Translations under genes and position numbers: made by a program
Notes under the pieces: generated by a model
What the model was told of the DNA's origin: nothing
The model's input: the letters and a program-made list of their open reading frames with translations, nothing else
Databases searched by the model: none
Source of the DNA: Bacteroidales bacterium
GTDB lineage: Bacteria; Bacteroidota; Bacteroidia; Bacteroidales; UBA932
NCBI GenBank assembly: GCA_017451395.1
Contig: JAFSPR010000046.1
Coordinates: 1-40,464, forward strand
Length of the DNA stretch: 40,464 bases
Direction of reading: 5' to 3'
Part shown: positions 2,702 to 17,864 of the stretch, in pieces
Layout: each line of letters starts with the position of its first letter
Numbering within the stretch: the stretch's first letter is position 1

Positions 2702-3190
2702 ATGAACAATTCCCAAACTAAAAAAATGCTTGAAAATCTGCGCCTTTTCCGCAGCAGATACTACTTCGCAGGTCTTATCCTCACAATTCTTCTGAAAGAT
2801 ATAGATTCAGGTGTTCTTGTGATCCCGAAAAATTTGATGAATATCTATTCTGCCCTATGCGTCCGGCGCTTTGGCAGTTACCGGAGTACTGGACATCTCC
2901 AAAGAGAGCTGGACAAGCAAATGGACGGCATCCTTGGAGCACTAAAAAATGACTTCCCGTACCTGATCAAAGAGGATATCGCAATCTTCTGCTACAGTGC
3001 AGCAGGTTTTCCGGATTATCTGACCGCCAGGTTCTCAAACCAGAGTTCCGGTAAAAGAGTAAGCGCAAGAAGGAGCCAGCTCATCCAGCTTCTCAAAAAC
3101 ACGGACCGTGACAAACGGGAGATTTATCTGGCAATGCTGTCAACAACTCCCGCGGACAACCAGCGTAGGTGGAATCAGGATCTGGCGTGA
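2702..3190 (+). CDS. Small HTH-containing protein, possible remnant
   Basis: This 162-residue protein is helix-rich. Its C-terminal half (about residues 90-150; EDIAIFCYSAAGF...ARRSQLIQLL) resembles the sigma-70-region-4/LuxR-like HTH at the end of long Bacteroidales TPR-transmembrane regulators. The HTH core looks degenerate (SNQSSGKRVSARRSQ). The TPR and membrane parts expected of such regulators are absent. The last 17 codons overlap the 3' end of the convergent lacI gene by 51 bp, suggesting either a truncated gene fused to new downstream sequence or an N-terminally deleted copy. Base composition is AT-rich like higBA. Function is unknown; the HTH similarity is from memory only. Confidence 0.5.
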   Translation: MNNSQTKKMLENLRLFRSRYYFAGLILTILLKDIDSGVLVIPKNLMNIYSALCVRRFGSYRSTGHLQRELDKQMDGILGALKNDFPYLIKEDIAIFCYSAAGFPDYLTARFSNQSSGKRVSARRSQLIQLLKNTDRDKREIYLAMLSTTPADNQRRWNQDLA

Positions 3191-4153
3191 GGGCGGATCC
3201 GGACGGCCGGCACGGCGGGCATCCATAATCTCGAAGAGAGTGTCCACGGCAATCTGGCCCGCTTCCCTCAGCGGCTGCTCCACCCTTGTGACGGCCGGAT
3301 CCATAAAATCCAGGAAGCCGTTGTTGTCATATGAGATAATGCCCACATCCTTCCCGGGCCTGAGTCCAAGACGCCTCAGCGAATCAATTGCCCCAAGGAG
3401 GATAGTTGAACTGAAAGCAAATATGGCGTCAAACTGTTTCTGAGCGCCGGAAAAGGCGCTGAGCACCTCCCTCTTGCCATTTTCCACGGAAAAAGCGTCA
3501 CCTACCACGCTGAACGCCACGCCGTGAACGCCTATCGCATCCTTGAATCCCCTCACACGTTCCCTGTTGGGCATTGAATCCGGCACACCCTGGATGGCCA
3601 GGATGCTTTTATACCCCTTACCAAGAAGGTACTCCGTAGCCATTCTGGCTCCGGCATAATTGTCCGTACAGACGTATGACAGGGAGGTGCTCTTGAAATG
3701 ACGGTCTATGAGGACCAGGGGAATCTGGGAGGAAACCTGCTCGTGGAATTCCGGCGTTGAAGATGCCGGGATGCAGATGATACCGTCTACGCTCCGGCTC
3801 ATAAACATCCGGAGTTCCTGGACCTCGTCCTTTCCGGACTCACGGGAATCGGCCAGAAGCGTATGATATCCCTTTGCATTGAGTATACCTATTATTATAC
3901 CTGAGAGCGTCGCGAAGAAAGGATTATCCACGGACGGGATAAGAAGGCCGATGGTCTTTGACTGCTGGGTCCTCAGGGTCTGGGCAATGAGGTTTGGCTG
4001 ATAATTGAGCCTTTCGGCCTCTGCCGTAATCTTTTCCTCCGCTTCCCTGCTGATCCTATATTTACGCGCCTTGCCCGAAAGCACCCTTGAAACCGTTGAT
4101 ACTGAGTATCCGGTTTGTTCCGAAACGGTAAAAAGTGTGTTTTTTTGGCCCAT
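3140..4153 (-). CDS. LacI-family transcriptional regulator of the ribose locus
   Basis: The 337-residue protein has an N-terminal LacI HTH (residues 7-30: LFTVSEQTGYSVSTVSRVLS) and a hinge region (YQPNLIAQTLRTQ). A periplasmic-binding-protein-like sugar domain follows (IGLLIPSVDNPFFATLSGI... to the end, including LVLIDRHF and VGIISYDNNGF). It is transcribed divergently from ribokinase across a 142-bp gap containing promoters on both strands and a palindrome. By family knowledge it should repress the locus and be released by a sugar ligand, most simply ribose or a ribose derivative. Its 3' end overlaps the small HTH gene tail to tail. Confidence 0.9.
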   Translation of the reverse strand: MGQKNTLFTVSEQTGYSVSTVSRVLSGKARKYRISREAEEKITAEAERLNYQPNLIAQTLRTQQSKTIGLLIPSVDNPFFATLSGIIIGILNAKGYHTLLADSRESGKDEVQELRMFMSRSVDGIICIPASSTPEFHEQVSSQIPLVLIDRHFKSTSLSYVCTDNYAGARMATEYLLGKGYKSILAIQGVPDSMPNRERVRGFKDAIGVHGVAFSVVGDAFSVENGKREVLSAFSGAQKQFDAIFAFSSTILLGAIDSLRRLGLRPGKDVGIISYDNNGFLDFMDPAVTRVEQPLREAGQIAVDTLFEIMDARRAGRPDPPSRQILIPPTLVVRGSC

Positions 4154-4232: not shown

Positions 4233-4240
4233 TATATTTG
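4233..4240 (+). promoter_or_regulatory. TAnnTTTG -7 box of the ribokinase-to-esterase operon
   Basis: TATATTTG lies 55 bases upstream of the rbsK ATG. It should drive the long operon from rbsK through the esterase, because no other convincing promoter or terminator lies between those genes. Confidence 0.6.
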
Positions 4241-4258
4241 TTAAGGATAGCACAATCG

Positions 4259-4268
4259 TTTGCGCAAA
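4259..4268 (+). promoter_or_regulatory. Candidate LacI-type operator
   Basis: TTTGCGCAAA is a perfect 10-bp palindrome with the central CpG step typical of LacI/PurR-family operators. It starts about 18 bases after the rbsK -7 box, so a bound repressor would block the beginning of the transcript. Assignment to the adjacent regulator is inferred from position and symmetry. Confidence 0.4.
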
Positions 4269-4295
4269 ACTTGAGCACAAAATAACACTAAAGAT

Positions 4296-5195
4296 ATGAG
4301 CCAAAAATCCATTCTGGTCATAGGCAGCAGCAATACGGATATGACCGCAAAAACCGCGGAACTTCCCCGTCCCGGTGAAACCGTCCTGGGAGGCGTTTTC
4401 ACAATGGGCGCCGGCGGAAAAGGCGCAAACCAGGCCGTGGCCGCACAAAGGCTTGGCGGCAAGGTCAAGTTCATCTGCAAGGTGGGAAAGGATATGTTCG
4501 GAGACAATTCCATAGCCCAGTATGAAAAGGAAGGCCTTGACACATCCGGAATCCTCCGCTCCAATCTTCCTTCCGGAGTAGCCCTCATCTATGTGGATTC
4601 ACACGCGGAAAACTGCATAGTGGTGGCATCCGGCGCAAACGGAGACCTCACGGAAGAAGACATTGAAAAATCCCGCAAGGACCTTGAGAACTGTGACATC
4701 CTTCTCCTCCAACTGGAGAGTCCCATCCCTTCCGTCCTCAAGGCGGCAAAGATTGCGCACCAGGCAGGAAAGACCGTGGTCCTCAATCCCGCTCCCGCCT
4801 GCCCTCTCCCGGAAGAACTCTTCCGAAACATAGACCTTTTCATTCCCAATGAAACGGAACTTTCCACCTTCAGCGGAATCGAAGTGAAGGACGTGGAATC
4901 GGCAGAAAAGGCCGCGGCGGCAATGCAGGCAAAGGGCGTAGGGAAACTCATAGTCACTATGGGCAGCAAGGGCGCCCTCATCTGCGAAGGCGGCCCGTCT
5001 GTCTTTGTCCCCGCCCATAAAGTGAAGGCCGTAGACACCACCGCCGCCGGAGACACCTTCTGCGGGGCTCTCTGCGTAGCCATCTCCGAAGGCAAATCCC
5101 TCAAGGAGGCCGCAGAGTTCGCCTGCGCGGCATCGGCCCTTACAGTCCAGAAGATGGGAGCCCAGAACTCCATCCCTTTCCGTAAAGATTTATAA
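4296..5195 (+). CDS. rbsK: Ribokinase (PfkB family)
   Basis: The 299-residue protein shows the ribokinase signatures in order. They are an N-terminal substrate motif (VIGSSNTDM), the first PfkB signature with a glycine pair (GAGGKGANQAVAAQRLGG, about residues 39-56), an NPAPA stretch, a NETE motif, and the catalytic C-terminal signature DTTAAGDTFCGAL (about residues 247-259) whose Asp in AAGD is the base. It phosphorylates ribose at O5 to ribose-5-phosphate in the cytoplasm. The length is normal. It is the first gene of the operon controlled by the divergent LacI-type regulator and is followed 19 bp later by a sugar permease. Confidence 0.94.
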   Translation: MSQKSILVIGSSNTDMTAKTAELPRPGETVLGGVFTMGAGGKGANQAVAAQRLGGKVKFICKVGKDMFGDNSIAQYEKEGLDTSGILRSNLPSGVALIYVDSHAENCIVVASGANGDLTEEDIEKSRKDLENCDILLLQLESPIPSVLKAAKIAHQAGKTVVLNPAPACPLPEELFRNIDLFIPNETELSTFSGIEVKDVESAEKAAAAMQAKGVGKLIVTMGSKGALICEGGPSVFVPAHKVKAVDTTAAGDTFCGALCVAISEGKSLKEAAEFACAASALTVQKMGAQNSIPFRKDL

Positions 5196-5214
5196 TAATT
5201 AAAACAATAAGACT

Positions 5215-6228
5215 ATGTTTATCGTTGGCAGTTACTCACTCGCAGTCATTTTCTGCTTCATCACTATGCTTTGCTGGGGTTCCTGGGGCAACACCCAGAA
5301 ACTTGCCGCAAAAAACTGGCGTTATGAACTGTTCTACTGGGACTACGTGATCGGTATGGTCCTCTTCTCCCTGCTTCTTGCCTTCACCGCAGGAAGTATC
5401 GGCAGTGAAGGCCGTCCTTTCCTCCAGGACATTGCCCAGGCCAACTGGTCAAGTATCGGCTGGGTGCTCCTTGGCGCCGTGGTATTCAACGTTTCCAACA
5501 TACTCCTCAGCGCATCCACATCAATCGCGGGCCTGGCAGTCGCCTTCCCTCTGGGAGTTGGCATTGCCCTGGTCATGGGTGTTCTCAATAACCTCCTCCT
5601 CCATCCCGTCGCTGGCCAGAACACCGGCCTCCTGTGGCTTGGCGTAGCCCTTGTCGTTGCCGCCGTAGTCTGCAACGGCATCGCTTCCGGCAAGGTTTCC
5701 AACGAGCAGAGGGACCCCAAACAGAACCGCAAGGGCATCATCCTGGCAGTGCTTGCCGGTCTCATTATGTCCTTCTTCAGCGCACTTGTATATAATGGTG
5801 TAGACCTGGCCGATTTCCACAATCCCGCCGCAGGAAAACTCACCCCTTACACCGCAATGGTTATCTTCGCCCTGGGCGTGTTCCTGAGTAACTTCATCGT
5901 GAACACCATAGTGATGAAAAAGCCCTTCGTGGGAGAGCCCGTCACCTATGCCCAGTATTTCAAAGGCAACTTCAAAACCCACCTTGTGGGTATGCTCGGC
6001 GGCGCCATCTGGGCACTTGGTACATCCCTCAACTATATATCGGCCGGAGAGGCCGGCGCAGCCGTTTCCTACGCCCTCGGACAGGGTGCTCCCATGATCG
6101 CCGCCATCTGGGGCGTATTCATCTGGAAGGAATTCAAGGGCGCCTCAAAGCAGGTTTACTGGCTCCTTGGCATTATGTTCGCCCTGTTCATCGCCGGCCT
6201 TGCAAGTATTGTTGTAGCAGGAATGTAA
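5215..6228 (+). CDS. GRP-family sugar permease, probable ribose transporter
   Basis: This is a 337-residue integral membrane protein with about ten hydrophobic helices. The N-terminal motif CWGSWGNTQKL and C-terminal segments (GGAIWALGTSLNYISAG, ALGQGAPMIAAIWGVFIWKEF) are those of the glucose/ribose porter and RhaT-like part of the drug/metabolite transporter superfamily. Its place between ribokinase and SusC makes free ribose the most likely substrate, carried across the inner membrane by ion symport. It ends 4 bp before susC. Substrate specificity cannot be read from the sequence. Confidence 0.85.
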   Translation: MFIVGSYSLAVIFCFITMLCWGSWGNTQKLAAKNWRYELFYWDYVIGMVLFSLLLAFTAGSIGSEGRPFLQDIAQANWSSIGWVLLGAVVFNVSNILLSASTSIAGLAVAFPLGVGIALVMGVLNNLLLHPVAGQNTGLLWLGVALVVAAVVCNGIASGKVSNEQRDPKQNRKGIILAVLAGLIMSFFSALVYNGVDLADFHNPAAGKLTPYTAMVIFALGVFLSNFIVNTIVMKKPFVGEPVTYAQYFKGNFKTHLVGMLGGAIWALGTSLNYISAGEAGAAVSYALGQGAPMIAAIWGVFIWKEFKGASKQVYWLLGIMFALFIAGLASIVVAGM

Positions 6229-6232
6229 TTGT

Positions 6233-9136
6233 ATGAAAAGACTAGTATCCTGTCTACTGCTCCTGGCGGTATTCTGGAGTGCATATGCCCAGAATATCAC
6301 CATATCCGGTACCGTCTCCGACGAACGTGGGGATTCCATAGCCGGAGCCACCGTCCTTTCCGGGAAAAACTACACGGAAACGGATCTGAACGGCCAGTTT
6401 TCCATCTCCGCTGCCAAAGGAGCCACCATTACCGTCTCCTTCCTGGGCTACGATGACTACGTTTTCAAGGCCGATGCATCCGGAGTCGCCATCCATCTTA
6501 CGCCATCGGCCTCAACCCTCCTCAACGAGTCCGTTGCCATAGGCTATGGCAAGACTACCAAGAAAGAGGTGACGGGATCCGTTGTGAGCCTCAAGACCGA
6601 AGACCTTGGCCTTGGTTCCTTCAACAATGCCGGCGGCATGCTTCAGGGCAAAGTGGCCGGCCTTACGGTTGTGAACCCCAACGGTGGAGACCCCAACGCC
6701 TCCTACCAGTTCCTCCTCCGTGGCACCAATACCCTTGCCGCAGGCCAGGGCCCCCTAATCATCATAGACGGCGTAATTGATGCCGATATCCGCAACATCA
6801 ATTTCCAGGAAATAGAGTCCATGGACGTCCTCAAGGATGGTTCGGCCGCGGCCATCTACGGCACCCGTGGCACCAACGGCGTCATAATCATCACCACCCG
6901 GAGGGCAAAGAGCGGTACCACTTCCGTCAAATATGACGGCCAGGTATCCGTCCAGACCATCCAGGCACGCGCCATCCCCATGACGGCCGAAGAATACCGC
7001 TATACCATAAACAACTACGCTCCCGGTCAGGCTGCTTCCATCAAGGACGCAAATACAGACTGGTTCAAGGAAATCACCCGCACCCCTATCAGCCACAAGC
7101 ACAGCATTGCAATTGCCGGAGGGACGGAGAAATTCAGCCACCGCACTGTCCTTAACACGGAGCAGAATCAGGGCCTCCAGAAAGGCAACGACGCAGCAAA
7201 GTATCTGATTAAGACCAATATCAACCAGAAAATCCTGCAGGGTTGGCTGGATCTGGACTATAACCTCTCCTATGTAAACAGGCAGGTCCACCCCGCCAAC
7301 TACGACGCCTTCCGTCAGGCATTCATCCGAAATCCTACGGAGCCGGTATACAATCCCGACGCAACCCTTTACGGCGGATACTATACCCTCACGGAATCAG
7401 ACTACCACAACCCCGTAGCCCTCATCAACGAGCGTGACCAGCAGAATCAGACCACAAGTGTGGGCGCAAGCGTAAGGGCCACCCTCAACATCCTGCCAGT
7501 GAAGGGTCTCAAGTGGGACAATTTTGTGAGTTACTCCGATGAAAAATACTTCAGCCAGGATTACCGCAGTTCATTCTACCCCGGTAGGGTTGGCAAGAAG
7601 GGCGTGGCAACATCCAAGGCCAATGCCTACGACAACCTCCAGTGGGAAAGCACCGTCCAGTACGCCAACACATTCGGCGGCCACTCCATACAGGGAATCC
7701 TTGGCTACACCTGGCAGAAGCAGATGAACTGGGAAACAGAAATGACCAATTCCGGCTTTGACTCTGACTTCTACAAATACAACCACATGAGCGGCGGCAC
7801 CGCATTAAAGGAAGGTCAGGCCGAAGAATACACCTACCGTTCCGAGAGCCGCTACATAGCCTTCTTCGGCAGGGCCATTTGGAATTACAAGGAGAAATAT
7901 CTTGCATCCGTGTCCCTACGCCGTGACGGCTCCTCCAGATTTGGAAAAGGCCAGAAATGGGGATGGTTCCCCGCCGTAAGCGCCGGCTGGCGCATAAGCC
8001 AGGAAGAATGGCTAAAGAATGTCAAATGGCTTGACGAACTTAAGATCCGCGCCGGATTCGGTGTTACCGGAAACCAGGACTTTGGGAACTACAAGTCCCT
8101 CATGCTCATGGCATCCGGCACCAATTTCTACTATAACGGCCAGTGGATCAACTCCTATGCCCCAGCATCAAATGCAAACCCCTACCTCGCATGGGAAAGG
8201 AAGAATGAGCTTAATGTAGGCGCAGACTTCTCATTCTTTGGAGGAAGGATCGGCGGAGCCATTGATTACTACTACAGGCTCACCACAAACCTCCTGTACG
8301 AGTATGACGTCCCCGTCCCTCCCTACGACAACAACAAGCTGTTCACCAACGTGGGTTCAATCAGCAACACCGGTATAGAACTTACCCTGTATGCCACTCC
8401 CGTCAAGACCAGGGACTTTGAATGGACCACCAACCTTGTCGCTGCGCACAATGAGAACAAGCTCATCAAGTTCACCAACGAGGAATTCCAGAATCAGGAT
8501 TACAAGATAGGATGGATGGCAACGCCAGTGGGCGCATACCTCCAGCGCCTCATGGAAGGAGAGAGCCTGGGATCCTTCTACGCTCCCATCTGGGAAGGAC
8601 TGGGAGCCGACGGTGAGGACATCCTGAAGGATGAATTTGCCGGTTCAGTATCAGAGAACAAGTGGGCCCGCATCGGCAGTGCATACCCTGATGTGACTCT
8701 GGGATGGACTAACACCCTGAAATACCGGAACCTCGCTCTCAGCTTCACGCTGAGGGGTGCCATCGGCGGAAAGATCTTCAACTCCTACAGGGCCTACTAT
8801 GAGACCCTTGACGCAATAGGCGTACAGAATATCCTTGGCTCCTGGCTTGACAACACTGCATACACCGGAAAGGTGCGCTACTCCTCAAAATACATAGAGG
8901 ATGCCACCTACTTCAAACTGGACAATGTGTCTCTGAGCTATGATATCCCTCTTAAGGAGAATAAGTTCGTCCACGGAATCAATGTCTTTGTGACCGGACA
9001 GAACCTCCTCTGCATATCCGGGTACAAGGGCGTAGACCCAGAGGTAAGCCTCTCCGGCCTTACCCCCGGTATCGAGAGCACCAGCTATTATCCCCGCACC
9101 AGCACTTTCACGCTGGGCGCAACACTCATCTTTTAA
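6233..9136 (+). CDS. susC: SusC/RagA-family TonB-dependent outer-membrane transporter
   Basis: The 967-residue protein has a signal peptide (residues 1-19, ending AYAQ). A carboxypeptidase-regulatory-like domain follows (about 22-92; ISGTVSDERGDSIAGATV), then a plug domain (about 95-225; MLQGKVAGLTVVN, LIIIDGV, IESMDVLKDGSAAAIYGTRG, NGVIIITTRR) and a beta barrel ending in the aromatic-terminated strand TFTLGATLIF. These are hallmarks of SusC proteins, which import ligands captured by a SusD partner, powered by TonB-ExbBD. It starts 4 bp after the permease stop and is followed 12 bp later by susD. The cargo is inferred to be a riboside or ADP-ribose-like compound from the operon content. Confidence 0.95.
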   Translation: MKRLVSCLLLLAVFWSAYAQNITISGTVSDERGDSIAGATVLSGKNYTETDLNGQFSISAAKGATITVSFLGYDDYVFKADASGVAIHLTPSASTLLNESVAIGYGKTTKKEVTGSVVSLKTEDLGLGSFNNAGGMLQGKVAGLTVVNPNGGDPNASYQFLLRGTNTLAAGQGPLIIIDGVIDADIRNINFQEIESMDVLKDGSAAAIYGTRGTNGVIIITTRRAKSGTTSVKYDGQVSVQTIQARAIPMTAEEYRYTINNYAPGQAASIKDANTDWFKEITRTPISHKHSIAIAGGTEKFSHRTVLNTEQNQGLQKGNDAAKYLIKTNINQKILQGWLDLDYNLSYVNRQVHPANYDAFRQAFIRNPTEPVYNPDATLYGGYYTLTESDYHNPVALINERDQQNQTTSVGASVRATLNILPVKGLKWDNFVSYSDEKYFSQDYRSSFYPGRVGKKGVATSKANAYDNLQWESTVQYANTFGGHSIQGILGYTWQKQMNWETEMTNSGFDSDFYKYNHMSGGTALKEGQAEEYTYRSESRYIAFFGRAIWNYKEKYLASVSLRRDGSSRFGKGQKWGWFPAVSAGWRISQEEWLKNVKWLDELKIRAGFGVTGNQDFGNYKSLMLMASGTNFYYNGQWINSYAPASNANPYLAWERKNELNVGADFSFFGGRIGGAIDYYYRLTTNLLYEYDVPVPPYDNNKLFTNVGSISNTGIELTLYATPVKTRDFEWTTNLVAAHNENKLIKFTNEEFQNQDYKIGWMATPVGAYLQRLMEGESLGSFYAPIWEGLGADGEDILKDEFAGSVSENKWARIGSAYPDVTLGWTNTLKYRNLALSFTLRGAIGGKIFNSYRAYYETLDAIGVQNILGSWLDNTAYTGKVRYSSKYIEDATYFKLDNVSLSYDIPLKENKFVHGINVFVTGQNLLCISGYKGVDPEVSLSGLTPGIESTSYYPRTSTFTLGATLIF

Positions 9137-9148
9137 CTGCATTGGGTT

Positions 9149-10669
9149 ATGAAAAAGATATTAAGCCTGGTTATCGCAATCGCCGCTTTTTCGGCCTGTA
9201 CCAATCTTGACGAGAAAATCTACTCCAACATATCCAAGGAGGATTTCTTCACATCTCAGGAGCAGTTCATAAAATATGCCGCCCGAGCCTACTCCTCCCT
9301 GCAGGTGTGGGGCACTGAAAAGAGTCTCTGGACACTCAATATCCAAATCACCAACGAGGTCTGCGTTCCCCTCAACCCCAACGGAAAATGGTGGGACGAC
9401 GGCAGGTACTACGACGTCCACGTCCACAGCATCTCCAACAACAACAGGCTGCTTGAGATGGCCTACAATTACTGCGTAGACGGAATTACCGCCTGTAATG
9501 ATGTCCTAGACGTATTCCAGGAGGTGGACAGGGACTTTGAAGGGAAAGAGAGCGTCATAGCGGAGATCAAGGTCCTAAGGGCCTACTACTACATGTGCGC
9601 CATCGACGGATGGGGCAGCGTTCCGTTCTCCATAAGCAAGAAGGAGAAGGGCCTTCCGGACAAGAAGGACAGGGCATTTGTCTTTGACTTCATAGTGAAG
9701 GAAATCACTGAGAACATTGACAAACTGCAGGTAGAGCCCACTCCGGCATACTATGGACGCATCACGCGCGGCGCCGCAGACGCCATCCTTGCAAAGATGT
9801 ACCTCAATGCTGAAAAATGGATAGGAAAGGAGATGTGGAAAGAGGCGGAGGATGTGTGCAAGGACGTCATCGACAGCAAACAATATCAGCTTGCCACCAA
9901 TTACAAGGACAATTTTGCGGTGTACAATGAAAACTGCCCCGAGCAGATTTTCGCAATCCCCTACAGCACGGTGTACACCACCGACGACCACCATGCATTT
10001 GTGATCTTCATGTCCACTCTCCCGGCCGATCTTTGCCGCCCCTTCGGCATCAACGCCGACGCCTGGGACGGACTGGTAGGAGAGCCGGATTTCCTGGCAA
10101 GTTATGATGCTGCCGATACCCGCAAGAAAGACACATGGCTATATGGTCAGATGTATGACAAAGACGGAAATCCTCTTGAACTTGAAGCCGGTGTCCCCTA
10201 TGTGATAGATCCCAATATGCCCGAAAGCGTGTTCGGCAAGGAATCCCGCCGCACCGCCCTTCAGGGCGCCCGAATTGGCAAATGGACTTACCAGAGCGAC
10301 GGTCGCCTTACAGGAGATGACACCGGCATGGAGAACGATTTCTTCCTCCTCAGGTATGCCGATGTAGTGCTCATGTACGCCGAAGCCCTTGTCAGGCAGA
10401 ACAGGGCTGGGGAAGCGGCAGCTATCCCCGAACTTCAGCAGATCCGCTCACGTGCCGGCCTTGGCCCCATGACCGCAGCAGACCTCACTCTTGACAACCT
10501 CTACTGGGAACGAGCCCACGAGCTTGCCCTTGAAGGATGGCAGCGCCAAGATATGATAAGGTTTGACAAATACCTTGAGCCCTGGTGGAATAAACCCCAG
10601 AAACAGGAGAAAGACTACATCCTGCCCATACCCAAGAGTGCAATTGCAGCAAACCCCAAACTCAAGTAA
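9149..10669 (+). CDS. susD: SusD/RagB-family surface nutrient-binding lipoprotein
   Basis: This is a 506-residue lipoprotein with a signal ending in a lipobox (AFSAC, Cys17). The SusD pattern is clear: FTSQEQFIKYAARAYSSLQ near the start, helices with VIAEIKVLRAYYYMCAIDGWGSVP (TPR-like part), ITRGAADAILAKMYLNAE, and the conserved end in which LRYADVVLMYAEAL, LQQIRSRAGL and ELALEGWQRQDMIRF are followed by a tail with LPIPKSAIAANPKL. It caps the SusC barrel and binds the imported ligand. The spacing to the next gene is only 2 bp, so it is translationally close to the ADP-ribosylglycohydrolase series. Confidence 0.94.
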   Translation: MKKILSLVIAIAAFSACTNLDEKIYSNISKEDFFTSQEQFIKYAARAYSSLQVWGTEKSLWTLNIQITNEVCVPLNPNGKWWDDGRYYDVHVHSISNNNRLLEMAYNYCVDGITACNDVLDVFQEVDRDFEGKESVIAEIKVLRAYYYMCAIDGWGSVPFSISKKEKGLPDKKDRAFVFDFIVKEITENIDKLQVEPTPAYYGRITRGAADAILAKMYLNAEKWIGKEMWKEAEDVCKDVIDSKQYQLATNYKDNFAVYNENCPEQIFAIPYSTVYTTDDHHAFVIFMSTLPADLCRPFGINADAWDGLVGEPDFLASYDAADTRKKDTWLYGQMYDKDGNPLELEAGVPYVIDPNMPESVFGKESRRTALQGARIGKWTYQSDGRLTGDDTGMENDFFLLRYADVVLMYAEALVRQNRAGEAAAIPELQQIRSRAGLGPMTAADLTLDNLYWERAHELALEGWQRQDMIRFDKYLEPWWNKPQKQEKDYILPIPKSAIAANPKLK

Positions 10670-10671
10670 AC

Positions 10672-12435
10672 ATGAAAAGGACAATTATCATCATATCGTT
10701 CTGCCTTCTTGCCGCATCCTGCGCCCAGAAACCGCTGGAGATTACGCGTACTGAGCTTAAGGACAAGATAGCCGGCGCCTGGCTTGGCCAGATGGTCGGA
10801 AACATCTACGGACTGGAGTATGAGAACAAGTTTGTGGAAGAGCCCGGTGAAGGCCCCTTCGTGTTCAACAAGGCCATCACCAAGATGACCGCCGTGGACG
10901 GCGCCTTCTCCGACGACGACACAGACGTTGAGTATCTCTATCTTATGATGATGGAAAAGGACGGAGTGGATCCCACCTACGCCCAGGTGCGGGACCACTG
11001 GATGTACCATATCCGTGACAGGGTGTGGCTTGCAAACCGTGCAGCCCTTGGTCTTATGCACTACGGCTTCACCCCGCCCCTCACCGGAAGCAAGGAATAC
11101 AACCCTCACTGGTTCCAGATAGACCCCCAGCTCATCAACGAGATATGGGCCTACACCGCCCCCGGAATGCCAGCCTATGCCGCCGGCATCTCCGACTGGG
11201 CGGCCCGCATCACCTCCGACGACTGGGCAGTGTCCCCTACCGTAGTGTACGGCGCAATGTACTCCGAGGCCTTCTTTGAAAAGGATATCCCCACCCTCAT
11301 CAGGCACGCAAAGGAGTATCTCCCCAAAAAGGACCGCTTCCGCAGGATAATCGACGAGTGCATAGCGCTTCACCGGCAGTACCCCGACAACTGGAAGGCA
11401 GCCCGCAAGGTCATTGCCGATGAACTCTATTTCAATGAGCCGGACATCACCAGGAGCATCTGGAACGCCGATCTTAACGGCGCAATGGGCATCCTCTCGC
11501 TGCTTTACGGCAACGGAGACATAGAGGAGACCCTCCTCATCGGCTGCGCCCTTGGCTTTGACTGTGACAACCAGACCGCCACCATGTGCGGCCTCCTTGG
11601 CGTCATCAACGGCATAGAGGGCGTTCCGCTTGACCGCGCAATGCCGTTCGATCACTGGAAAAAGCCCTTCAACGACCGCTACATCAACGTAACCCGCTAC
11701 GATATGCCCGACGCCTCCATCGAGGACCTCATCGAACGCACTGTGGTTCTTGCCGAAAAGAACATCCTTGCACGCGGCGGAAAGGTCCGTGAGGAAAACG
11801 GAGAGAAGATCTACACCATCAACCGCAAGGCCCGTTTCACTCCTGCAAAGGAGGCGGCAGCCTTGTTTGAACTCCCCGCCCCCAGCGGCCGCAACCTTGC
11901 CCCCGAGGCAGCGGAAATCCTTGCCGCTACCCGTCAGACAGACCGCGCCACGCTGGATTCCTGCTGGCTCACCATCCCCGTCACTTACCGCGCCTACACC
12001 GTGGATGTAATCAACGACGGCGTGGAGAGCGGCCCCGGAGCGGCTTTCTACTCACTTGGAGAGAAGTCCAACGCCCCCAAGCGTGACTTCTTCGGCTACC
12101 GCTGGAATGAGCCCATAACAACTGATATGATTTCATTCCACTACGGCCCGCTTGAGGAATTCGGCGGCTGGTACAGCAATATGCATCCGGAGTATCTGGA
12201 TGAGAACGGAAACTGGGTGCCCATAGAGGCAACGGTCACCCCCGCCCTTCCTTACTGTGATGAGGTTTTCTTCCAGCCCCACAATGCGGAATTCGTGTTC
12301 ACCTTCCCCAAGGTCACAACAACGGCCGTAAGGATTATCGGTGACGACGCTGTCCTCATCCACTGGCACAAATACACAAAGGCTGTATCGGCCTTCATTT
12401 CAATAACGGAATTAAAGGTTTATGAAGCAAAGTAG
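10672..12435 (+). CDS. ADP-ribosylglycohydrolase-family lipoprotein 1 with C-terminal domain
   Basis: This is a 587-residue lipoprotein (lipobox LAASC, Cys17). The ARH/DraG fold covers about residues 27-350. The start helix is LKDKIAGAWLGQMVGNIYG. The first metal cluster is SDDDTD at 80-85, matching the (S/T)DDT of the family. The second is DCDN at 297-300 within GFDCDNQTATMCGLLGVINGIEG, in place of the usual DTDT. A further domain (about 430-587) is beta-rich and ends FISITELKVYEA, recalling an F5/8 C or galactose-binding module. The family hydrolyses N-glycosidic bonds of ADP-ribose or related ribosides using metal ions. Its 3' end overlaps the next gene by 14 bp. The true substrate is unknown. 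Confidence 0.82.
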   Translation: MKRTIIIISFCLLAASCAQKPLEITRTELKDKIAGAWLGQMVGNIYGLEYENKFVEEPGEGPFVFNKAITKMTAVDGAFSDDDTDVEYLYLMMMEKDGVDPTYAQVRDHWMYHIRDRVWLANRAALGLMHYGFTPPLTGSKEYNPHWFQIDPQLINEIWAYTAPGMPAYAAGISDWAARITSDDWAVSPTVVYGAMYSEAFFEKDIPTLIRHAKEYLPKKDRFRRIIDECIALHRQYPDNWKAARKVIADELYFNEPDITRSIWNADLNGAMGILSLLYGNGDIEETLLIGCALGFDCDNQTATMCGLLGVINGIEGVPLDRAMPFDHWKKPFNDRYINVTRYDMPDASIEDLIERTVVLAEKNILARGGKVREENGEKIYTINRKARFTPAKEAAALFELPAPSGRNLAPEAAEILAATRQTDRATLDSCWLTIPVTYRAYTVDVINDGVESGPGAAFYSLGEKSNAPKRDFFGYRWNEPITTDMISFHYGPLEEFGGWYSNMHPEYLDENGNWVPIEATVTPALPYCDEVFFQPHNAEFVFTFPKVTTTAVRIIGDDAVLIHWHKYTKAVSAFISITELKVYEAK

Positions 12436-14038
12436 CATCATAGCGGCACTGCTGGCGCTCCTTCTTGCTGCCTCGTGCTCCGCGCCGAAGGCCCCCGAGT
12501 CCGTAACCCTCTCAAAGGACGCCCTTATGGACAAGATCAAGGGCGGCTGGGCCGGCCAGACCATAGGCGTAGTGTACGGCGCTCCTACGGAGTTCAAGTT
12601 CTGCGGAACCATTATCCCGGAAGATATTCCCATCGGCTGGGGAGAAGGCTACGTGAAGCACTGGTGGGACCGCAAACCCGGCCTGTTTGACGACGTCTAC
12701 AATGACCTCACCTTCGCCGAGGCCTTCGAACAGTTGGGCCTGGATGCATCGGCCCACAACCTTGCCCTCCGCTTTGCTTACGCGCCCTACCACCTTGCCC
12801 ACGCCAATCAGGCCGGACGATACAACGTTCGCCAGGGCATAATGCCGCCTGAATCCGGCAACTGGCTCAACAACCCCCACGCCGACGACCTTGACTTCCA
12901 GATTGAGGCCGATTTCATAGGCTTGATGGCTCCGGGAATGCTCCCTGAGGCCCTTGATATTGCCGACCGCGTAGGACACATCATGAACAGCGGCGACGGA
13001 TTCTACGGCGGAGCCTACGTCGCGGGCCTTTACAGCGCCGCGTTCGTTGAGTCAGACCCCGCAAAGATTGTGGATATGGCGCTGGAGGCAATCCCCGTGG
13101 AGAGCACCTTCCGGCAGTGCATCGACGACGTCATTAAATGGCACAGGCAGTATCCCTCCGACTGGAAGGCCACCTGGTTCCAGGTCCTCAAGAAATGGGG
13201 GGCCGATACAGGCTGTCCCAAAGGAGTGGGCCTGAGTTTTGACATCGACGCCAAACTCAACAGCGCATACGTCACCATCGGCCTGCTGTACGGCGGCGGA
13301 GACTTTGGAAAATCTATGGAGATAGCCACCCGCTGCGGCCAGGATTCAGACTGCAACCCTGCAACCGTAGGCGGCGTCCTTGGCGTAGTGTACGGCCTAG
13401 AAGGCATCCCCGAATTCTGGCGCAAGCCCGTCATGGAAATCTGGGACCTTGACTTTGAAGGCACTGACGTCTCCCTTTCCAAGGGCAGCAGGTATTCCTA
13501 CAATCACGCCCTCAAACTTATTGAGAAAAACGGCGGAGAGGTTCGTGAGAATGAGGTTGTAATTCCTGTTTCCAAGCCGGAAGTCCTACCCCTGGAGCAG
13601 AACTTCATTCACACCTATCCCCTTATGAGGGACCAGAAGGACGCCTGGCTCCGTGACACCTATGAGTTTGACTTCTCAGGCAACGGCTTTGTGATCTGGG
13701 GTAACCTTGTGTGCCTGAGGGGCATCACGGAAGACTACGCCCAGAGGGTGGCCAAAAAGCACGTCGGCTCAGAGGTATTTGCTATGGCAGAGGAAGGAGA
13801 CCCTTACGTAGCGGAGATAGAGGTTTGGATAGACGGAGCCCTGGACCAGGTTTCCATCCTTCCTATGAAGGGCACCTCCCGTAAACTGGAACCCGCCTGG
13901 AAATACTGTATGGAAGAGGGCCGTCACAACGTTAGACTGGTGTGGCGTAACCCCAGGCCGGAAACCTACCTCCTCAGGATAAACGCCATAGAATACTACA
14001 GCGAAAGGAAGAATGAAGACACGTATTACCATAATTAG
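12422..14038 (+). CDS. ADP-ribosylglycohydrolase-family lipoprotein 2
   Basis: This is a 538-residue lipoprotein (lipobox LAASC, Cys19). The ARH-fold core covers about residues 34-345. It contains DKIKGGWAGQTIGVVYGAPT, an acidic motif DDVYNDLT at 90-97 in the place of the canonical (S/T)DDT, HADDLDFQIEAD, and the second metal motif DSDCN at 308-312 followed by PATVGGVLGVVYGLEGIP. A beta-rich C-terminal region (about 380-538) follows. It is a close paralogue of the next gene, sharing long colinear motifs, and more distant from the previous one. The metal-binding carboxylates appear intact, so activity is plausible. It overlaps neighbours by 14 and 26 bp. Confidence 0.82.
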   Translation: MKQSSIIAALLALLLAASCSAPKAPESVTLSKDALMDKIKGGWAGQTIGVVYGAPTEFKFCGTIIPEDIPIGWGEGYVKHWWDRKPGLFDDVYNDLTFAEAFEQLGLDASAHNLALRFAYAPYHLAHANQAGRYNVRQGIMPPESGNWLNNPHADDLDFQIEADFIGLMAPGMLPEALDIADRVGHIMNSGDGFYGGAYVAGLYSAAFVESDPAKIVDMALEAIPVESTFRQCIDDVIKWHRQYPSDWKATWFQVLKKWGADTGCPKGVGLSFDIDAKLNSAYVTIGLLYGGGDFGKSMEIATRCGQDSDCNPATVGGVLGVVYGLEGIPEFWRKPVMEIWDLDFEGTDVSLSKGSRYSYNHALKLIEKNGGEVRENEVVIPVSKPEVLPLEQNFIHTYPLMRDQKDAWLRDTYEFDFSGNGFVIWGNLVCLRGITEDYAQRVAKKHVGSEVFAMAEEGDPYVAEIEVWIDGALDQVSILPMKGTSRKLEPAWKYCMEEGRHNVRLVWRNPRPETYLLRINAIEYYSERKNEDTYYHN

Positions 14039-15527
14039 CGCTGCTGCCCTTCTCCTTCTTGCGGCCTGCGCCCGGGAGGTCCCCAAGGTCCCTTACGGGA
14101 AAACCGTGAGCCTGGACAGCACCACCCTTATGGACAAGATCAAGGGCGGCTGGTACGGCCAGACCATAGGCTGCACCTACGGCGGTCCCACGGAATTCAA
14201 GTACAAGGGCGGCCTCATAATGGATGAAATCCCCATCCCCTGGTACGACGACTACATCTATGACACCTACATAGAGGATCCGGGCCTGTACGACGACGTA
14301 TATATGGACCTCACCTTTATGGAGACTATGCTCCGGTGCGGTCTGGATGCGCCCGTGGAAGAGTACGCCAAGGCTTTCGCCTATGCCGATTACAAACTCT
14401 GGCACGCAAACCAGGCAGCCCGCTACAACATCCTTAACGGCCGCGGCGCCCCCGAAAGCGGGCATTGGAAATATAATCCCCACGCAGATGACATTGACTT
14501 CCAGATAGAGGCCGATTTCATTGGCATGCTCTACCCCGGCCAGGTGAATAAGGCATCTGAACTCAGCGACCGCATAGGCCACATCATGAACTACGGGGAC
14601 GGCTGGTACGGAGGCGTTTTCATCGGCGCGATGTACTGCCTTGCATATGTGTGCGACGATATCCCCACAATTTTGACGGAGGCCCTGAGGACCATCCCTG
14701 AAGGCACCAAGTTCCACAGCACAATCTCTGACTGCATAAAGTTCTGGAAGCAGTATCCCAAGGACTGGAAACAGTGCTGGTTCGAGGTGACAAACCGTCA
14801 CGCCAACGACGTAGGCTGCCCCGAGGGCGTCTGGAACGGTTTCAACATTGACGCCACCGTCAATTCCGCGTTCGTCGTCATCGGCCTTCTTTACGGAGAG
14901 GGTGATTTCCTGAAGACTATGGACATAAGCACCCGCTGCGGCAACGACTCCGACTGCAATCCTGCATCGGCCGCCGGCATCCTTGGCGTGATGTACGGCT
15001 ACGACGCCATCCCCGATTACTGGAAAAAGGGTGCGGAGAAAATCAAGGACATCCCCTTCCCCTATACATCCCTGAGCCTTGACGAGGTGTGCCGGGAAAA
15101 CCTGAATCTTATCCTGAAATGCAACGAATCAGGGGATAACGGCATCTTATTTAATGTTGAGAAACCACAGCCCGTCCGCTACGAGCAGTGCTTTGAGGGG
15201 ATAAAGCCCGTGGAAAAGAGAGTGCTCAAGAAAGCCTTCACCACCGAGGCCCTGTTCCCGTTCAAGGGAAACAGCATTGTGGTGGAAGGAAGCGTCCGGA
15301 AAACCGGCCACGCGGATGACAGTTATGTGGCATCCGTCACGGCTATCCTGGACGGCACTGAACTGGAAACCTTTACTATGCCCGTAGATTATATCACGCG
15401 GAAGTATGAGATATTCAGCGCCTACTGTTTTGACAGCGGGGAGCACACGCTTACCCTCCGCCTCAACAACCCCCACCCCGATTTTGAACTGTACGCACAA
15501 GAAATGGTTGTATATGATAAGGAGTAG
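14013..15527 (+). CDS. ADP-ribosylglycohydrolase-family lipoprotein 3
   Basis: This is a 504-residue lipoprotein (lipobox LAAC, Cys19). It has the same architecture as lipoprotein 2: DKIKGGWYGQTIGCTYGGPT near residue 41, DDVYMDLT at 94-101, HADDIDFQIEAD at about 158-169, and DSDCN at 312-316 followed by PASAAGILGVMYGYDAIP. A shorter beta-rich C-terminal region follows. The gene begins 26 bp inside the previous one and ends 14 bp inside the esterase gene, so the four are very probably translationally coupled. It and lipoprotein 2 probably arose by tandem duplication and divergence. A role in cleaving ribosyl N-glycosides is inferred from family and locus. Confidence 0.82.
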   Translation: MKTRITIISAAALLLLAACAREVPKVPYGKTVSLDSTTLMDKIKGGWYGQTIGCTYGGPTEFKYKGGLIMDEIPIPWYDDYIYDTYIEDPGLYDDVYMDLTFMETMLRCGLDAPVEEYAKAFAYADYKLWHANQAARYNILNGRGAPESGHWKYNPHADDIDFQIEADFIGMLYPGQVNKASELSDRIGHIMNYGDGWYGGVFIGAMYCLAYVCDDIPTILTEALRTIPEGTKFHSTISDCIKFWKQYPKDWKQCWFEVTNRHANDVGCPEGVWNGFNIDATVNSAFVVIGLLYGEGDFLKTMDISTRCGNDSDCNPASAAGILGVMYGYDAIPDYWKKGAEKIKDIPFPYTSLSLDEVCRENLNLILKCNESGDNGILFNVEKPQPVRYEQCFEGIKPVEKRVLKKAFTTEALFPFKGNSIVVEGSVRKTGHADDSYVASVTAILDGTELETFTMPVDYITRKYEIFSAYCFDSGEHTLTLRLNNPHPDFELYAQEMVVYDKE

Positions 15528-17025
15528 AATCATAATTGCAGTAGCAGCGCTCTTTGCACTCACGTCCTGCGGCTGCGAAAAGAAACGCGTGCTGCCGGAA
15601 GTAGAACCCGCTCCGCTGGGAAGGTATAACACCAACCTTTCCTTTACCAGCGCCGTGCTTGACAGGAATGTTCCATACGACATCCTTCTGCCCACGGGCT
15701 ACAATGATAATCCGGACAAACGCTATCCTGTGATGTATATGTTCCATGGCCTTGGAGATGACAACACCTCCTGGAACGGCAGTTGGCTCAGGGGCGAGGA
15801 AAAGATAACCAAGCTTGAAAAAGAGGGCCTGGAGCCCATGATTTACGTCTTTCCCATGGGGTGGAAGGCGTATGGTAGTGACAGATATGACGGCCATTTT
15901 TCCTACATGACCATGATTGCCACGGAGTTTGTCCCCATGATAGACAAGACATACCGCACCATTGCCGACAAAGAGCACCGTGGCACCATAGGCTATTCCA
16001 TGGGCGGTTTTGCCGCCATGGTAAACGCCATGAAGCACCCGGAACTCTTCTCCATGAGCGCACCGCTTTCCATGTCAATGCGCACCGACGACCAATATAA
16101 GGCCGAATCCCAGACCGGATGGGATGGCCAGTGGGGCAAGATCTTCGGCGGCCTGGGACAAGGCGGAGACGGACGTATCACCGATTACTATAAGGAGCAC
16201 TGCCCCCTCCACCAGTTCACCGCCGAAAACCTTGACAAGTATACAAAGGTTCACTGGTTCCTAACCTGCGGAGACGACGAAGAGCAGCTCCTCATAGCCA
16301 ACGACGACCTACATGTCCTCATGCGTGACAACGGTTATCCCCATGAATTCCGCGTATGGAATGGAGGACATTCATCTTCATACTGGAGAGGTGCCCTGGA
16401 AGAGGTACTTCCATATTTCTCATCCATCATGGCAGGTCAAACCGAGTGGCAGAAATCACTTCTTGAGGTTAATGTTCCTCAGGACGTCCAGTTCACGGAA
16501 GACGGCATCTACGTATCTGAAGCATACTCCAAGGCCGATAAAAAAGAGGGCGTAGTGATCTACATCGCCTACGACGGCACGGACCCGTCATGGATTAAGG
16601 ACGGGATGTCCATCATCCAGCGCGGACTCTCATCAAAACAGTTTGTCCTTATTCCCTGCGACATCTCAAAGAAAGACATCCATGAATGGGTAGCGTTCTA
16701 TAAGGACATCTATCCCGCAACATATACCCAGGCACTTGCCATCGGCAAAACCGGCAATCATGTCCTGGAGAAGCAGAGCCTGTTCTCCTCCCTCTACTTT
16801 GAAAACGCAGTTGTCAAGGCCCCGGTTACCATAGACGCTGAGAAATACTACTATATCGGCCAGTGTGATGAAGACCCGGGATACAGGAGCGCAAACCTCC
16901 TCTACAAGGAGTGCAAGGCCGCCGGTGGCAAGTTCGAGTACCGGTGCCGCAATCATCTTGACGATCCCCGCCTTGACTTCCTCACCGGGATGGAGTATGT
17001 AAAAACGCAGTTAAACAACCTATAA
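15514..17025 (+). CDS. Esterase-D-type alpha/beta-hydrolase lipoprotein
   Basis: This is a 503-residue lipoprotein (LTSC, Cys19). The start at 15514 is chosen over an upstream in-frame ATG because it places the signal peptide at the N-terminus and gives the 14-bp overlap seen elsewhere in the operon. The hydrolase domain (about residues 35-305) has RYPVMYMFHGLGDDNTSW (oxyanion region), the nucleophile elbow GYSMGG with Ser162, an acidic CGDDEE near 253-257 and the likely catalytic His286 in NGGHSSSYW. This is the putative-esterase/feruloyl-esterase family. A second region (about 320-503) looks like a degenerate hydrolase-like domain. In this operon it may remove acyl groups from the ribosyl substrate; that is inference. 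Confidence 0.82.
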   Translation: MIRSRIIIAVAALFALTSCGCEKKRVLPEVEPAPLGRYNTNLSFTSAVLDRNVPYDILLPTGYNDNPDKRYPVMYMFHGLGDDNTSWNGSWLRGEEKITKLEKEGLEPMIYVFPMGWKAYGSDRYDGHFSYMTMIATEFVPMIDKTYRTIADKEHRGTIGYSMGGFAAMVNAMKHPELFSMSAPLSMSMRTDDQYKAESQTGWDGQWGKIFGGLGQGGDGRITDYYKEHCPLHQFTAENLDKYTKVHWFLTCGDDEEQLLIANDDLHVLMRDNGYPHEFRVWNGGHSSSYWRGALEEVLPYFSSIMAGQTEWQKSLLEVNVPQDVQFTEDGIYVSEAYSKADKKEGVVIYIAYDGTDPSWIKDGMSIIQRGLSSKQFVLIPCDISKKDIHEWVAFYKDIYPATYTQALAIGKTGNHVLEKQSLFSSLYFENAVVKAPVTIDAEKYYYIGQCDEDPGYRSANLLYKECKAAGGKFEYRCRNHLDDPRLDFLTGMEYVKTQLNNL

Positions 17026-17067
17026 ACTATATTTCCTAACACATTAACTCTTTAAAACATTTGCATT

Positions 17068-17811
17068 ATGAAAAGAATTCTCTGTGCAGTAGCAATGCTA
17101 ACAGTAGCATTCGGTTTTGTTGCCTGCAACAAGGGCGCAAAGGAAGAACCCAAGATTGTAAAGCGCCTCACGATGTGCGGTGACGAATGGGACAAGTATG
17201 TGTTCACCTACGGTAGTGACGGCAAGCTTGTCAATGTAAACCGTAACGAAGGCGAGCGCACCTGGGCATTCACCTGGAATGGCAAGGTTGGCACCGCAAA
17301 GTATGTCAAGGAAGGCGAGGAGCAGGGCAACTGGGTCCTCACCCTTGGCGACAACGGTTTCCTCACCACCTTCGCAAACGAATGGGAAGACACCTTCGGC
17401 TTCACCTATGACGCCAACGGTTACCTTCTCAAGATTACCCGCCCGGACCGCGACAACGCCGTAAAGTGCAACTACAGCTGGAAAGACGGCGACCTTGCAA
17501 AGTGGTCAAGGTTCAAGGATGACGGCTCAGAGGAATGGAAAATCCAGAGCTTCCTCGCCGACGAGAACGTAGCCGGCATCTTCCCCGATGCAACCGACAA
17601 GACCGACGTTCCCCGTTGGATCTTCGAGCTTGGCCTCTGCGGCAAACCTTCAAAGCATCTGCTTGACGAGGCTCTCTGGGAGGGTAGCGAAAGCAAAGCC
17701 ACTCACGAGTACGAGAAGGACAAGGATGGCTTTGTAACCAAGGTTACCAAATACTATGACGGAGAAGTAGACCAGGTCTACGAGTACCAGTGGGAAGAGA
17801 TCAAGAAGTAA
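17068..17811 (+). CDS. Lipoprotein of unknown function with repeated beta-strand pattern
   Basis: This is a 247-residue lipoprotein (signal with FVAC, Cys20). The mature part consists of short repeating strands with tyrosine, tryptophan and glycine turns (VFTYGSDGKLVNV, FTYDANGYLLKI, YSWKDGDLAKW, YEYEKDKDGFVTKVTKYYDGE). This resembles the YD/RHS-like strand pattern of DUF4595-type Bacteroidales lipoproteins. It lies 42 bp after the esterase with no overlap and ends at a strong terminator. It could be the last gene of the ribose operon or a separate gene. No catalytic motif is visible. Confidence 0.75.
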   Translation: MKRILCAVAMLTVAFGFVACNKGAKEEPKIVKRLTMCGDEWDKYVFTYGSDGKLVNVNRNEGERTWAFTWNGKVGTAKYVKEGEEQGNWVLTLGDNGFLTTFANEWEDTFGFTYDANGYLLKITRPDRDNAVKCNYSWKDGDLAKWSRFKDDGSEEWKIQSFLADENVAGIFPDATDKTDVPRWIFELGLCGKPSKHLLDEALWEGSESKATHEYEKDKDGFVTKVTKYYDGEVDQVYEYQWEEIKK

Positions 17812-17829
17812 TCTCTTATCATTCATTTC

Positions 17830-17864
17830 ATCGGCCTCCCGCACCCCGGGGGGCCGATTTTTTT
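17830..17864 (+). terminator. Rho-independent terminator after the lipoprotein gene
   Basis: ATCGGCCTCCCG pairs with CCGGGGGGCCGAT around a short CACC loop, followed by a run of seven T. The end of the T run overlaps the presumed -33 TTTG of the asnS promoter. Confidence 0.85.

Follow-up and report, generated by a model that had tools for sequence, protein, structure and literature searches.

A putative ribose utilization operon of Bacteroidales with three ADP-ribosylglycohydrolase-fold lipoproteins and an exchanged surface module

INTRODUCTION

Ribose utilization systems are already known in Bacteroides, and Glowacki 2020 reportedly describes diversified variants of them. In Bacteroides thetaiotaomicron, the Rus polysaccharide utilization locus (PUL), BT2803-2809, is required for ribose use according to an excerpt of PMC12596196, and the gene list in an excerpt of PMC10434189 gives ribokinase, SusC/D, DUF4969, a nucleoside hydrolase and a permease. 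Here we analyze an operon in a stretch of 40,464 nucleotides from a Bacteroidales bacterium (contig JAFSPR010000046.1 of assembly GCA_017451395.1), the whole of which is called the window below. From position 4296, tightly spaced or overlapping genes of the plus strand encode, in this order, ribokinase, permease, SusC, SusD, three lipoproteins of the ADP-ribosylglycohydrolase family PF03747 (ARH; here ARH1, ARH2 and ARH3), an esterase and a DUF4595 protein (Table 1). The host genome is a Bacteroidales metagenome assembly of 2.15 Mb in 133 contigs.

The ribokinase scores above its family cut-off and is accompanied by a SusC/SusD pair and a sugar permease. By their lipoprotein signals and their linkage to ribokinase, the ARHs are candidate secreted riboside-cleaving enzymes. 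Judged from the sequence, the operon is rather probably a ribose utilization system, in which capture at the surface would be followed by periplasmic cleavage by the ARHs, ribose import and phosphorylation. A first-pass annotation of the DNA had named ribokinase, permease, SusC/SusD, three ARHs, an esterase and a LacI-type regulator, and profile matches recovered all of them. Its claim of lipoboxes on all four enzymes is borne out by lipobox-type N-termini on the three ARHs and the esterase. The DUF4595 partner, the mosaic of the surface genes and the signal ends suggestive of periplasmic ARHs go beyond it.

RESULTS

Surface genes are exchanged around a constant ARH core

Scanning genome contigs with ARH3 gave 59 loci, of which 34, together with the window, carry all nine genes, each with at least 80% of its full length. 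The annotation had proposed a genome search for the same gene order; the recurrence of this gene set in other loci shows that the arrangement is not due to chance.

A module of SusC/D, esterase and DUF4595 is exchanged between close relatives around the constant ARH core, and this is the most unexpected part of our findings. Between the window and the related locus L004, identity in the core is 98% for ribokinase, permease and ARH1, 96% for ARH2 and 95% for ARH3; in the exchanged part it is 60% for SusC, 53% for SusD, 49% for the esterase and 29% for the DUF4595 protein. The exchanged blocks occupy 6233-10669 (SusC/D) and 15514-17811 (esterase and DUF4595) of the window and are separated by nearly 5 kb of ARH genes. 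At the DNA level, the identity of the two loci in 250-base steps is 81-99% over 4251-6250, 55-72% up to 10750, 85-98% up to 15500, 48-63% up to 17750, 84% up to 18000 and 92-98% over 18001-21000. Steps of 30 bases place the breakpoints at about 6190-6250 (the start of SusC), 10710-10770 (13-33 codons inside ARH1), 15480-15510 (the end of ARH3) and 17810-17840 (shortly 5' of the terminator).

A quartet comparison separates exchange from rate of change. The L004 core is nearer to the window (0.969) than to L037 (0.917), whereas its surface genes are nearer to those of L037 (0.92 for SusC, 0.94 for SusD, 0.78 for the esterase and 0.91 for DUF4595), which indicates exchange as the cause. The genomes concerned are metagenome assemblies, from which a mosaic could also arise as an assembly or binning artefact. 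We regard this as very improbable, because the breaks sit close to the ends of genes, identity in the downstream flank is 96%, discordant pairs recur across many separate assemblies and the L004 SusC has its close counterpart in L037.

Identity matrices of 35 loci, corrected for the core, showed the same coupling. Correlations were 0.72 for SusC-esterase, 0.89 for SusC-DUF4595, 0.66 for SusD-esterase and 0.68 for esterase-DUF4595, each matched by none of 2000 permutations; for L040, L042 and L059, each with two esterases, the best-scoring one was used, and in their case paralogues may have been compared. Control correlations were close to zero (SusC-permease -0.02, SusC-ribokinase 0.09, esterase-ARH3 0.06). 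Weighing against a fixed module, the coupling has exceptions: in L011, L012, L015 and L022, esterase type 1 accompanies SusC/D/DUF type 3. The SusC type is unchanged in some close pairs, namely 3 of 4 at a core identity of at least 0.95 and 12 of 35 at 0.90-0.95. Exchange of SusC/D coupled to a distant enzyme gene was not found in the literature, on a narrow search.

The exchanged genes encode an outer-membrane protein and lipoproteins, and an excerpt of PMC11817032 describes four alleles with horizontal transfer for RagAB of Porphyromonas gingivalis. The exchange could therefore serve escape from phages, bacteriocins or antibodies rather than a change of substrate, a real possibility that we lean slightly against and that is compatible with a ribose system. 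The esterase, whose triad is intact, is in most cases exchanged together with SusC/D, which points to function. We favor a substrate-related role, in which exchange would shift capture to another decorated form of the substrate.

Esterase, DUF4595 and lipoprotein location

By its sequence, the esterase is carbohydrate esterase family 1 (CE1)-like, with an intact triad. Its nearest structure is the PDB ferulic acid esterase 7xrt (E 2.9e-34), and the presumed triad is conserved in 94 (Ser), 93 (Asp) and 94 (His) of 94 aligned rows, with the serine in a GxSxG motif. These residues, assigned by sequence position, are S163, D255 and H287 when numbered from 15511 (subtract one from the ATG at 15514). 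This ATG, not 15406, is most likely the start, because the signal sequence MIRSRIIIAVAALFALTSC begins there.

As a general rule in Bacteroidetes, acidic residues beside the lipid-bearing cysteine export lipoproteins to the surface. An acidic pair stands at this place in 92% of 52 SusD rows and 40% of 15 DUF4595 rows, and in none of 43 ARH1, 69 ARH2 and 88 ARH3 rows; these rows include near-identical loci, and the DUF4595 rows are relatives above 200 bits, near the window's type. Taken with the export rule, the lack of the pair suggests that the ARHs are probably periplasmic rather than surface-exposed. The DUF4595 protein is possibly located at the surface and is a candidate surface binding protein. 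Weighing against a surface esterase, the ends of this lipoprotein are mostly basic, with the acidic pair in 9% of 55 rows, which leaves the surface location of the esterase unsure. Co-variation groups the esterase with SusC/D, and on this basis SusC/D, esterase and DUF4595 may form a complex resembling utilisomes.

Ribokinase and nucleoside hydrolase genes are recurrent neighbors of ARH relatives

Neighborhoods were read in 87 stretches fetched from order and genus matches (53 and 34), as six-frame open reading frames (ORFs) labelled by phmmer, with a Pfam check on a sample. Stand-alone ARH relatives make up 70 rows from at most 69 places, some of the stretches being cut by contig ends. A ribokinase-like gene is nearby in 22 of these rows (3 weak and on the opposite strand) and an IU nucleoside hydrolase-like gene in 16, both being present in 14; Pfam confirmed such neighborhoods in L087, L117 and L121. 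Within the order part, ribokinase and permease lie close by in 13 of 43 single-ARH stretches. With 17 ribokinase matches in 149 genomes as background, about 0.03 chance neighbors would be expected for 43 intervals of 20 kb (genomes of about 3.6 Mb). Such a ribokinase was present in 15 genomes, and when the lists were compared, 13 of these were also among the ARH-match genomes of the order draw.

The window's genome, which is 81% complete, gave no match to the nucleoside hydrolase family PF01156 and no PF03747 protein besides ARH1-3. Within the limits of an incomplete genome, the missing PF01156 match makes the ARHs likely riboside hydrolases. The repeated placement of ARH relatives near genes for ribokinase and nucleoside hydrolases gives good support to a ribosyl substrate. 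The first-pass annotation had proposed extracytoplasmic harvest of a ribosyl compound that ribokinase takes into metabolism, and the recurrence in other loci agrees with it. Some of these loci have no SusC/D in the fetched stretch.

Part of the evidence weighs against a general link to ribose. No ribokinase-like gene was seen nearby in 48 of the 70 single-ARH rows, and one ARH branch lies beside GH106-like genes, mostly with GH28-like genes too, at 11 loci, of which 8 have no ribokinase-like match and 3 a weak one on the opposite strand. This setting suggests that the branch is not bound to ribose. Such neighbors also argue for another reading, in which the ARHs are true ribofuranosyl glycosidases acting on an acylated bacterial or plant glycan whose oligosaccharides SusC/D imports and whose acyl groups the esterase removes. 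Close ARH relatives in loci with GH106-, GH28- and SASA-like genes, surface parts that vary as though recognising variable decorations, and the combination of SusC/SusD with a CE1-like esterase, typical of glycan loci, are in line with it. We consider this reading rather unlikely, since Pfam finds no further glycoside hydrolase in the operon, and single ARHs stand more often beside ribokinase and nucleoside hydrolases than beside GH106-like genes (13 of 70 rows, with GH28-like genes in 10).

The 11 GH106-type loci (L124, L128, L130, L131, L132, L134-L137, L139 and L150) carry ARH3-type lipoproteins, were Pfam-checked in L128 and in some cases have a SASA-like esterase; they represent a second, pectin-like setting of the ARH fold in the genus. 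In other ribose-type loci (L101-L109, L087, L091, L113 and L115), ribokinase adjoins a divergent gene whose product has about 500 residues and is weakly TPR-like in L113; this gene perhaps encodes a RusR-type regulator. A locus of ribokinase, permease, nucleoside hydrolase and ARH in L117 and L118 is near queC-like and queuosine-precursor-transporter-like ORFs, a possible link to queuosine salvage.

Three separate ARH families with an altered metal site

ARH1 contains the motifs SDDDTD, GxDxDN and GLxxEN. Invariant residues are E51, D82, D83, D297 and D299 in ARH1 (23 rows aligned) and E57, D90, D91, D308 and D310 in ARH2/3 (66 rows aligned), which we take to be the catalytic Glu and the Asp metal ligands of the ARH metal site, with Thr as further ligand positions. 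Stricter text patterns around the motifs are kept in 59, 64 and 65 of 65 sequences for ARH1, 90, 80 and 86 of 91 for ARH2 and 120, 118 and 120 of 120 for ARH3. An extra conserved HADDIDFQIEADF-type motif is present in ARH2/3.

Searched singly against the PDB, ARH1 and ARH2 gave no match. A profile of 18 ARHs gave weak matches (1.8e-7 to 3.9e-3), concentrated at the metal motifs, to MJ1187, DraG, 6dre (labelled ADP-ribosyl-dinitrogen-reductase hydrolase) and the classical ARH3, and the Glu and Asp pairs align. A point against the proposed ribosyl hydrolysis is that the classical metal-site Thr positions are F/Y and C in ARH2/3, so that their chemistry may differ; ARH1 retains the Thr after DD and has N instead in the second motif. 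Because Thr ligands are replaced, we do not file the ARHs as classical ADP-ribosyl hydrolases.

The fold profile, the metal acids and the nearest solved relatives (MJ1187, the two bacterial dinitrogen-reductase hydrolase entries and ARH3) would fit harvest of ADP-ribose or NAD, with the ARHs stripping ADP-ribose from proteins or splitting NAD-like compounds or acyl-ADP-ribose, and ribokinase using the ribose. This explanation is quite improbable in our view: the similarity to classical ARHs is weak and confined mostly to two metal motifs, no phosphatase, nudix or phosphodiesterase family that would process the diphosphate is among the Pfam matches of the operon, and triple-ARH operons occur in metagenome-assembled genomes (MAGs) whose isolate labels appear to denote a sulfidic cave, a lake and a digester (L059, L054 and L062). 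Given these habitat labels, a host-derived substrate is not required, and we put host-protein ADP-ribose aside as a necessary source.

The first-pass annotation had called the three ARHs divergent, and in a quick tree of 112 rows, built without a mixture model, they form three separate conserved families. ARH2 of multi-ARH loci is one starred clade (20 rows) and ARH3 another (21 rows and two stand-alone genes); row L148_ARH2 is a fused ORF trimmed to its ARH1 part. From their separate clades and joint retention, the three ARHs appear old, distinct and kept together, and the deep clades led us to reject redundant recent duplication. ARH1 and ARH2 are fused in a single frame in L047 (6460-9981, 1173 aa) and L148 (5419-9000, 1193 aa). 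The family GH188, considered as a possible ARH family, was rejected since it is a sulfoquinovosidase family.

In L041 (8188-9994), a Peptidase_C10 gene with an inhibitor-type prodomain and a small gene with no Pfam match are inserted between ARH2 and ARH3. Outside the order, ARH1-like lipoproteins of L160 and L161 adjoin ORFs that resemble, by sequence impression, glycogen-branching and amylomaltase-type enzymes.

Distribution of the operon

Among named genomes, those that come nearest in the ARH3 scan are mostly MAGs from the rumen, with RUG478 at the top. Relatives of the window's ARHs at E 1e-40 or better were found in 52 of 393 genomes drawn evenly from the order and in 42 of 151 genomes of the window's genus. 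ARH1-type genes at E 1e-60 occur in 5 of 395 genomes of the phylum draw, including the window's own. About 18 matched places (7 order, about 11 genus) were left unfetched, most of them incomplete, interrupted in frame or at the end of a contig, and including the multi-ARH contigs G471:C18 and G419:C63. All 20 multi-ARH stretches have ribokinase and SusD, 19 the esterase (the other stops at ARH3) and 18 the permease; the rows are not all independent, since, judged by their matching lengths, L058/L100 and L059/L104 are the same contigs and L140-L147 are eight of L007-L042.

A lone ARH3 relative of the PUL clade (about 8960 to about 10770) lies in L138 directly 5' of asnS-like and udk-like genes, the same place as the window's full operon, and resembles the remnant of a lost operon.

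Operon layout and control elements

The features of the operon are collected in Table 1. Relative to the first annotation, the esterase start was moved, the DUF4595 gene was added, a hairpin is now the end and the promoter and candidate operator were placed shortly 5' of the annotated start. For the permease, annotated as GRP-type, the assignment as a permease held, but the GRP family PF06800 matched more weakly (33 bits), Ureide_permease being the best Pfam match. Rfam RNAs and tRNAs were searched for in the window and none was found.

Table 1. Positions of the operon features in the window, with the supporting evidence
Feature	Position	Strand	Evidence
LacI-type regulator, divergent from the operon	3140..4153	-	Pfam LacI and Peripla_BP_3
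Bacteroidales -7 type promoter element TATATTTG	4233..4240	+	Sequence match to general consensus
Candidate LacI-family operator, perfect palindrome TTTGCGCAAA, 3' of the promoter element	4259..4268	.	Sequence
Ribokinase (rbsK)	4296..5195	+	TIGR02152 367 bits, cut-off 299.65; PDB ribokinase 4x8f E 7e-72
Inner-membrane sugar permease, DMT/ureide-permease type	5215..6228	+	Ureide_permease PF07168 1.3e-24; PF06800 4e-8
SusC/RagA TonB-dependent outer-membrane transporter	6233..9136	+	TIGR04056 677 bits, cut-off 368
SusD lipoprotein, surface-type acidic signal CTNLDEK	9149..10669	+	PF07980
ARH1 lipoprotein, C-terminal region past the ARH domain	10672..12435	+	PF03747 105 bits, cut-off 26.2
ARH2 lipoprotein	12422..14038	+	PF03747 136 bits, cut-off 26.2
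ARH3 lipoprotein	14013..15527	+	PF03747 136 bits, cut-off 26.2
CE1-like esterase lipoprotein, extra C-terminal region of about 190 residues	15514..17025	+	PF00756 2.2e-23
DUF4595 lipoprotein-like protein	17068..17811	+	PF15283 44 bits, cut-off 34.2
Terminator-like hairpin closing the operon	17830..17858	+	12-pair stem with 9 G-C pairs, then TTTTTT

The top NCBIfam match of the LacI-type regulator is RbsR-like, at 184 bits and under the cut-off of 382. Of the 10 multi-ARH genus stretches, eight (L140-L147) have a divergent lacI (360-517 bits), and the remaining L148 and L149 have a weaker lacI (245 and 235 bits) on the same strand as the operon. The -7 promoter consensus of Bacteroidales is TAnnTTTG. 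Of the 25 close loci with at least 60 bases upstream (window included), 21 have this motif 38-77 bases 5' of the first base of ribokinase. The palindrome TTTGCGCAAA occurs once in the window, where shuffles predict 0.04 occurrences, and may be the operator of the LacI-type regulator. Of 50 upstream stretches, 16 contain TTTGCG[C/T]AAA, and every one of these belongs to the 25 close loci (window included), with 13 exact copies at 34-43 bases upstream and three T-variants at 71-73 bases. Its absence from 9 of the 25 close loci counts against an operator role.

DISCUSSION

In the system that we propose, SusC/SusD, probably with DUF4595 and the esterase, would capture a ribose-containing molecule at the surface and remove some of its ester groups. 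Hydrolysis of the ribosyl bonds would fall to the three ARH-fold lipoproteins, probably periplasmic and each acting on a different bond, after which the permease would import ribose and ribokinase phosphorylate it, with a LacI-type repressor presumably acting at TTTGCGCAAA. A surface capture module of swappable specificity would thereby feed a fixed ARH module, probably in the periplasm. The parts of this scheme that we infer are the identity of the freed sugar as ribose, where the proteins reside in the cell and how they divide the work.

If this is correct, proteins of the ARH fold, familiar chiefly as erasers of signals inside cells, gain in secreted form a role as nutrient enzymes, and three orthologous ARH families are defined for assay. 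We also entertain, as a speculative and unlikely proposal, that the secreted ARH-fold proteins are new ribofuranosidase families for an acylated ribose glycan, the decorations of which would be read by a recombining four-gene surface module while the three periplasmic enzymes stay fixed. The mosaic is a natural experiment, in which near-identical catabolic cores are combined with different SusC/D-esterase-DUF4595 types. It can show what the outer-membrane part recognises and which proteins cooperate there.

By analogy, the operon may work like a Rus-type system in which ARHs replace the nucleoside hydrolase. With the Rus PUL of B. thetaiotaomicron it would share ribokinase, SusC/SusD, a DMT-type permease, a secreted riboside hydrolase (here the candidate ARHs) and ribose use. 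The excerpted Rus gene list includes DUF4969 and a nucleoside hydrolase but mentions no ARH; the window operon instead combines three ARHs with a CE1-like esterase, a DUF4595 protein and a regulator of the LacI type. ARH-containing ribose loci were not among the literature matches listed, and the original Rus description (Glowacki 2020) lies outside that literature. Classical ADP-ribosylglycohydrolases (DraG, ARH1 and ARH3) have PF03747 and aligning metal-centre Glu and Asp pairs in common with the window ARHs. The latter differ in being lipoproteins with extra C-terminal regions in a nutrient operon, and ARH2/3 also in their replaced Thr positions and additional motif.

The ARH of the Escherichia coli yegTUV operon is cytoplasmic. 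According to an excerpt of PMC10819704, yegTUV likewise unites a putative nucleoside transporter, an ARH-family protein and a PfkB-type kinase, but it lacks SusC/D and is tied to ADP-glucose and glycogen. The glycogen-type neighbors in L160 and L161 are comparable to this operon (PMC10819704, same excerpt).

In levan and dextran utilisomes, SusC/D assembles into one complex with a binding protein and an enzyme, both located at the surface (excerpt of PMC7618045). For the window operon, such a complex is suggested by co-variation alone, and its enzyme would be an esterase. RagAB of P. gingivalis is a SusC/D-type pair that likewise occurs in exchangeable types (PMC11817032, in the excerpt cited above), whereas in the window operon the co-variation extends, across species-level genomes, to two genes some 5 kb from the pair, those for the esterase and DUF4595.

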